Shown piece after piece: positions 62,630 to 63,620 of a stretch of 64,000 nucleotides of DNA. Both the position numbers and the translations under genes were made by a program. Under the pieces are notes generated by a model that was not told the DNA's origin, did no database searches, and saw only the letters and a list, made by a program, of their open reading frames with translations. The stretch comes from Halanaerobium congolense (GTDB lineage: Bacteria > Bacillota > Halanaerobiia > Halanaerobiales > Halanaerobiaceae), in the NCBI RefSeq assembly GCF_004366375.1, contig NZ_SOEF01000007.1:1-64000 (forward strand). Reading direction: 5' to 3'. Position 1 is the stretch's first letter; each line of letters opens with the position of its first letter.

Positions 62630-62732
62630 GTGAAGAAAATTGGGTTAATTGGAGGAATGAGTTGGGAATCTACTGCTCTTTAATACAACTGAGCTGCATG
62701 CAAAAAAGGCAGTTGAATTTGCTTTAAGTTAA
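62630..62732 (+). pseudogene. Aspartate/glutamate racemase reduced to head and tail
   Basis: GAGGAGG and a GTG start open KKIGLIGGMSWESTAL, the exact beginning of the YgeA-type aspartate racemase family, then a stop. One frame over, the sequence reads FNTTELHAKKAVEFALS and a stop, the normal end of the same family (DTTELHAKKAVE). About 200 residues, including both catalytic cysteines, are missing. The overlap of head and tail at 62679-62683 marks the junction. Confidence 0.88.
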
Positions 62733-63371: not shown

Positions 63372-63399
63372 TTGACTTAGTTAGAAAAAGTTATATAAT
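63372..63399 (+). promoter_or_regulatory. Sigma-70-type promoter of the small peptide gene
   Basis: TTGACT at 63372-63377 and TATAAT at 63394-63399 are separated by 16 bp, one of the best matches to the housekeeping consensus in the window. Transcription would start near 63406, about 55 bases before the 30-residue peptide gene. Confidence 0.8.
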
Positions 63400-63461
63400 G
63401 TACTTACGGTTAATATAAAACCTATAATAATTCTATAAGTTTATAAGAAAGGGTGATAATC

Positions 63462-63554
63462 ATGAAAGAAATCATGAAAAAATCTGCAGGTGCAGGTGCA
63501 GCCGTAGGTGCTATATCAGCATATGGTGCTTTTCTAGTCCAAATGTGGTCATAA
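63462..63554 (+). CDS. 30-residue hydrophobic peptide
   Basis: The frame MKEIMKKSAGAGAAVGAISA continues YGAFLVQMWS and stops. It has a charged start, a Gly/Ala-rich segment with small residues in a GxxxG-like spacing, and an aromatic end, so it probably lies in the membrane. AAAGGGTG precedes the ATG. It has its own strong promoter and terminator, giving a transcript of about 210 nt. It may be a small toxin, a bacteriocin-like peptide or a membrane-protein partner; nothing in the sequence decides. It lies between two alarmone-type genes. Confidence 0.6.
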   Translation: MKEIMKKSAGAGAAVGAISAYGAFLVQMWS

Positions 63555-63594
63555 TATAGCAGCACTTAATAATTAAATAATTTAAGACCTTAAG

Positions 63595-63620
63595 GCCCGG
63601 CATTTATTTGCTGGGCTCTT
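63595..63620 (+). terminator. Terminator of the small peptide gene
   Basis: GCCCGGCA (63595-63602) pairs with TGCTGGGC (63609-63616), one G-U pair, followed by TCTTTAATTTTT. Confidence 0.85.

Follow-up and report, generated by a model that had tools for sequence, protein, structure and literature searches.

Type I toxins such as Fst/Ldr, TisB and BsrG/TxpA are short hydrophobic peptides produced from short mRNAs. Leaderless and two-peptide bacteriocins are cationic, have about 30 residues, and carry a GxxxG-like motif and a tryptophan near one end. At the RNA level, the mRNA leaders targeted by TRAP and CsrA are bound at tandem short repeats. Among small single-pass membrane proteins, Escherichia coli YohP has 27 residues (PMC7549839).

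The gene analyzed here lies at 63372-63620 on the forward strand of the window, the whole 64-kb stretch of Halanaerobium congolense DNA under study, and encodes a 30-residue peptide. Compared with YohP-type proteins, the peptide is alike in length and in having one predicted helix, probably transmembrane; it differs in showing no sequence relation that we could find, in an occurrence confined, within the genomes searched, to Halanaerobiaceae, in its unusual Gly/Ala helix, and in its shared repeat leader. Like the type I toxins it is a short hydrophobic peptide encoded by a short mRNA, but no antisense RNA is evident, no family match was obtained, and its chromosomal place is stable within lineages. 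It also has the bacteriocin traits listed above, but no second peptide and no immunity or export genes accompany it. Like TRAP and CsrA targets, its leader belongs to several mRNAs with tandem repeats at or near the Shine-Dalgarno (SD) sequence; unlike them, the repeat is AUAAGNNN with an 8-nt period, the binder is putative, and no Rfam family is matched at gathering threshold. The literature searched contained no small-protein or small-RNA study of this halophilic anaerobe lineage and no description of such a leader.

Organization of the gene

A span of 250 bp holds a strong promoter, a long ribosome-binding site, a 30-codon ORF (63462-63554) and a terminator. The sigma-70-type promoter (TTGACT-16-TATAAT, 63372-63399, forward strand) matches 11 of 12 consensus positions and is one of seven sites scoring at least 11/12 on both strands of the 64 kb. 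Since promoter-like matches in themselves are no commoner than chance predicts (18 found versus 18.2 expected), conservation is the better test; similar -35 and -10 elements precede most orthologues. At two loci (L005 and L006) the automatic promoter scan chose no good site by the leader, and TATAAT is visible there by eye. The extended SD AAGAAAGGGTGAT (63445-63457, forward strand) is kept in orthologues and presumably could pair, by sequence, with the 16S 3' end on either side of a 2-nt gap. The ORF begins with ATG at 63462, encodes MKEIMKKSAGAGAAVGAISAYGAFLVQMWS on the forward strand, and closes with a stop codon ending at 63554. Downstream, an intrinsic terminator hairpin (63594-63617, forward strand) with a stem of 9 pairs, 6 of them G-C, precedes the T-rich tract CTTTAATTTTT. 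Orthologues have a hairpin at the equivalent place, mostly of unrelated sequence, and 3' UTR conservation is poor between most of them; the surrounding 4 kb contain 4 terminator-like sites versus 1.4 expected from shuffling. The entire layout of promoter, SD, ORF and terminator is found again at orthologous genes.

A sequence-only reading had proposed that one of the best promoters of the window, a clean ribosome site and a strong terminator serve an autonomous gene for a small-residue helix below usual annotation size. Promoter, ribosome site and terminator were all borne out, and the data support a free-standing, monocistronic gene for such a 30-residue peptide. Autonomy holds for the transcript but probably not for its regulation, because numerous other tiny genes in the class carry the same kind of 5' leader.

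The shared 5' leader

The leader (63417-63457, forward strand) contains ATAAT, ATAAG and ATAAG units (ATAAGNNN) that begin at 63427, 63435 and 63443, in an 8-nt register, and abut the long SD (AAGAAAGGRTGAT). In a DNA search, the 5' UTR matched places ahead of other small ORFs. The pattern TATAAGNNNATAAGARAGGRTGAT, with up to 2 mismatches, occurred at 53 sites in 59 class genomes and its reversed control at none; a triple-repeat pattern was likewise enriched over its control. These genome-wide counts rest on pattern searches. When spacing was left free, 41 of 126 ATAAG-ATAAG distances were 8 nt and 18 were 16 nt, two peaks that stand above a background of roughly 1-8 per bin. The units, where present, mostly lie at -22, -14 and -6 from the SD core, whereas the distance from the -10 box to the SD varies across leader loci, mostly over 32-88 nt, a few of the automatic promoter picks behind this measurement being clearly wrong. 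A register fixed to the SD at a variable distance from the -10 box points to action of the leader at the RNA level.

Scanning 84,980 species genomes for the leader returned 27 stretches, about half in Halanaerobiales and the others scattered. None of nine matches outside the class precedes an ORF of 20-60 codons, and the single match in viral contigs has no start codon after it. At gathering score, Rfam gave no match in the window and none over the leader at leader-bearing loci. Five loci (L176, L179, L181, L183 and L187) carry a distinct conserved 5' UTR, in which ATAAG units accompany the SD ATAGGAG; at L181 and L183 the protein encoded after it exceeds 250 residues.

The class accounts for 49 distinct leader sites: 38 are followed by an ORF of 28-57 codons and 10 by a longer one, and the remaining site lacks a start. 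Some loci entered this set through related searches, and it is not a strict census. The small ORFs fall into at least five unrelated families, among them the 30-residue peptide, a group of 31-42 residues beginning MFNSMF or MLNSLF, zinc ribbons about 50 residues long, and the MSxLExISILLEH proteins, which have 49-50 residues. Triple ATAAG leaders precede a second family of orphan membrane peptides, 28-29 residues long (MRDLLI..PQL.ELY; L101, L106, L173, L100, L198 and L199). Elsewhere, two or three neighboring leader-bearing small genes, of 32 and 41-42 residues, are clustered (L119, L122, L123, L126, L067 and L072).

If the leader were simply a strong, constitutive and unregulated translation initiator, the long SD and the mostly strong promoters would fit. 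Alone, such a function leaves unexplained both the 8-nt register of specific ATAAG units and the bias to small unrelated proteins, and we regard it as possible, if rather unlikely. The repeats might instead be an operator that a transcription factor binds on the DNA, with a transcriptional regulon as the result; they follow directly after near-consensus promoters, a position in which a repressor might work. This reading is doubtful, as the register is fixed to the SD rather than the -10 box, the 8-nt period differs from the DNA helical repeat, and the conserved block continues unbroken into the SD.

In one family, f7, a conserved small RNA without an ORF begins with a copy of the leader. It occurs in six genomes of that family, with three copies in G019 and two in G035 (loci L203, L206, L207, L202, L200 and L209; also L273, L274 and L282), and was not found in Halanaerobium. 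The leader-like 5' part is closed in a stem, after which come a CU-rich tract resembling an anti-SD and a terminator; one copy gave a sub-threshold match to RsaOG. This RNA might be either a decoy or a regulator of the anti-SD type.

Conservation and distribution of the peptide

When Halanaerobium genomes were searched for the peptide, as the sequence-only reading had proposed, 7 of 11 congeners proved to have it; this protein-level search covered 60 relatives. It is nearly always present once per genome, the exception being G008, which has a second, more distant copy (a paralogue). All congener copies have 29-30 residues, begin M-K/R and finish W-S/T/G. dN/dS ranged from 0.10 to 0.56 and was below 1 in every computable pair, a sign of purifying selection, and differences by codon position in four non-overlapping pairs numbered 21/19/39 (binomial p = 0.002). 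Judged by these substitution patterns, the 30-codon ORF is a genuine conserved coding gene in which synonymous changes are favored, and the coding signature would place it among translated ORFs of under 50 codons.

Beyond the genus, two sister genera have divergent relatives: a 30-residue peptide in G012 with a weak profile match (E 0.14), and one in G013 that was found independently, via its leader. The strong matches that a profile rebuilt with these two members gives to them are circular. In G012 the gene has an SD but lacks the ATAAG repeats; peptide and leader are thus not strictly tied. The enlarged profile found no copy in three congeners (G005, G006 and G010, each 99% complete), and the peptide is therefore dispensable. 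As 199 genomes drawn more widely from the phylum also yielded no convincing new member, the family appears confined to Halanaerobiaceae as far as searched. Weak profile matches outside the family were dismissed, most lying within longer frames or, where read, lacking the architecture. The peptide had no significant match among Pfam, NCBIfam, PHROG or PADLOC families, and only chance matches in a PDB profile search. The plasmid collection searched gave no match.

The peptide carries N-terminal lysines and has G, A or S every four residues along one face. A single helix is predicted over residues 2-29 (mean pLDDT 88). G12 and G16 are nearly invariant, L25 and W29 invariant; small-xxx-small pairs occur in every member and G12-G16-A20 in most. 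Charge is +2 in this copy and +1 to +5 in relatives. The best 19-residue hydropathy mean is 1.45 in this copy, which is marginal, but 1.9-2.16 in some relatives, which is clear, and membrane insertion is on this basis likely. The earlier designation as a membrane peptide is plausible, though marginal by the hydropathy of this particular copy.

Chromosomal context

The gene occupies the window-equivalent region in G008, G009 and G007 and adjoins some of the same genes in G011, but stands at a different place in the H. saccharolyticum genomes (G001 and G004). Both sister genera carry the gene at one shared place, by clpX/clpP/trigger-factor-like genes and a TetR-like gene (identified by eye). 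Position is thus stable within lineages, but neighborhoods differ between lineages, which indicates that there is no linked partner gene. The window copy is flanked by an HD-domain gene and a RelA_SpoT-domain gene, the two neighbors covered by Pfam checking. A link to (p)ppGpp was judged positional, since this flank is missing from the H. saccharolyticum and sister-genus copies. Nearby, at 62631-62690 of the window, is a racemase-like gene remnant, VKKIGLIGGMSWESTAL followed by a stop; intact relatives of 230 residues occupy the equivalent place in L163 and L164.

Discussion

The sequence-only reading had likened the peptide to type I toxins and leaderless bacteriocins, while noting that no antisense RNA or immunity gene was evident. 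Neither likeness gained support beyond size, charge and composition. A membrane-acting type I toxin silenced by an antisense RNA would fit the size, the charge and the single-helix form. Against it, the opposite strand at eight loci showed no antisense promoter whose position is conserved, though a weak or trans-acting RNA might exist; the gene is nearly always single-copy and stably placed within lineages, its SD is strong, and no toxin, defense or phage family was matched in PADLOC or PHROG; we consider a toxin improbable. A 47-codon ORF on the opposite strand was rejected as a gene, antisense frames there not being kept open in orthologues. A secreted product, whether leaderless bacteriocin or other antimicrobial or signaling peptide, is very unlikely. 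The peptide is cationic with a tryptophan near its C-terminus, and two-peptide bacteriocins have small-residue motifs of a similar sort, but conservation is vertical rather than patchy diversification, and in no lineage was a transporter or partner-peptide gene seen next to it. The earlier remark about immunity genes holds: ORF tables read by eye at ten loci showed no immunity or export gene beside the peptide gene. That the transcript is a small RNA with an incidental ORF can scarcely be credited, since its somewhat better folding than shuffled sequences (z -2.7) is set against codon-position bias, constant ORF length, dN/dS below 1 and a 3' UTR poorly kept between most orthologues. A kept transcript with an unkept peptide had been named beforehand as a pointer to a small RNA; this pattern did not occur, and the result favors the peptide.

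The account we prefer, and to which we give about an even chance, is that of an accessory single-helix membrane protein belonging to a leader-defined small-protein regulon. What was computed here is the anatomy of the gene, the conservation of the peptide, and the recurrence and register of the leader; membrane insertion and topology, packing on a partner and the role of the leader are what we infer. The lysine-rich N-terminus would remain in the cytoplasm, a single helix would cross the membrane, and the aromatic C-terminus (W29-S/T30) would lie at the opposite interface. The face formed by the small-xxx-small residues (in most members G12-G16-A20) would most likely pack on a partner membrane protein, or on itself, and tune its activity. 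The mRNA would be one of a set of short mRNAs found across the class, most of them coding for proteins of 28-57 residues, whose leader places two or three AUAAGNNN units in an 8-nt register before merging into an unusually long SD. Such a leader would most likely be an RNA binding site or a ribosome-loading site that gives high or co-regulated translation. Points against this account are the marginal hydrophobicity of the present copy, the lack of a linked partner gene, the absence of the peptide from three nearly complete congeners, the G012 copy that lacks the repeats, and the 10 of 49 leader sites that precede ordinary genes. More tentatively, and with the odds against it, an RNA-binding factor of the Halanaerobiia might read AUAAGNNN units, in their 8-nt register, beside the SDs of many tiny-protein mRNAs in a dedicated post-transcriptional small-protein regulon, with the f7 small RNA as its decoy.

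Tiny proteins usually escape annotation, and here they are flagged by a nucleotide leader rather than by the protein. With one simple pattern, several families that have 28-57 residues and no relation to each other can be found throughout a class, which offers a route to more. Should the leader prove to be a regulatory site on the RNA, these genes would form a translational regulon made mostly of tiny proteins.
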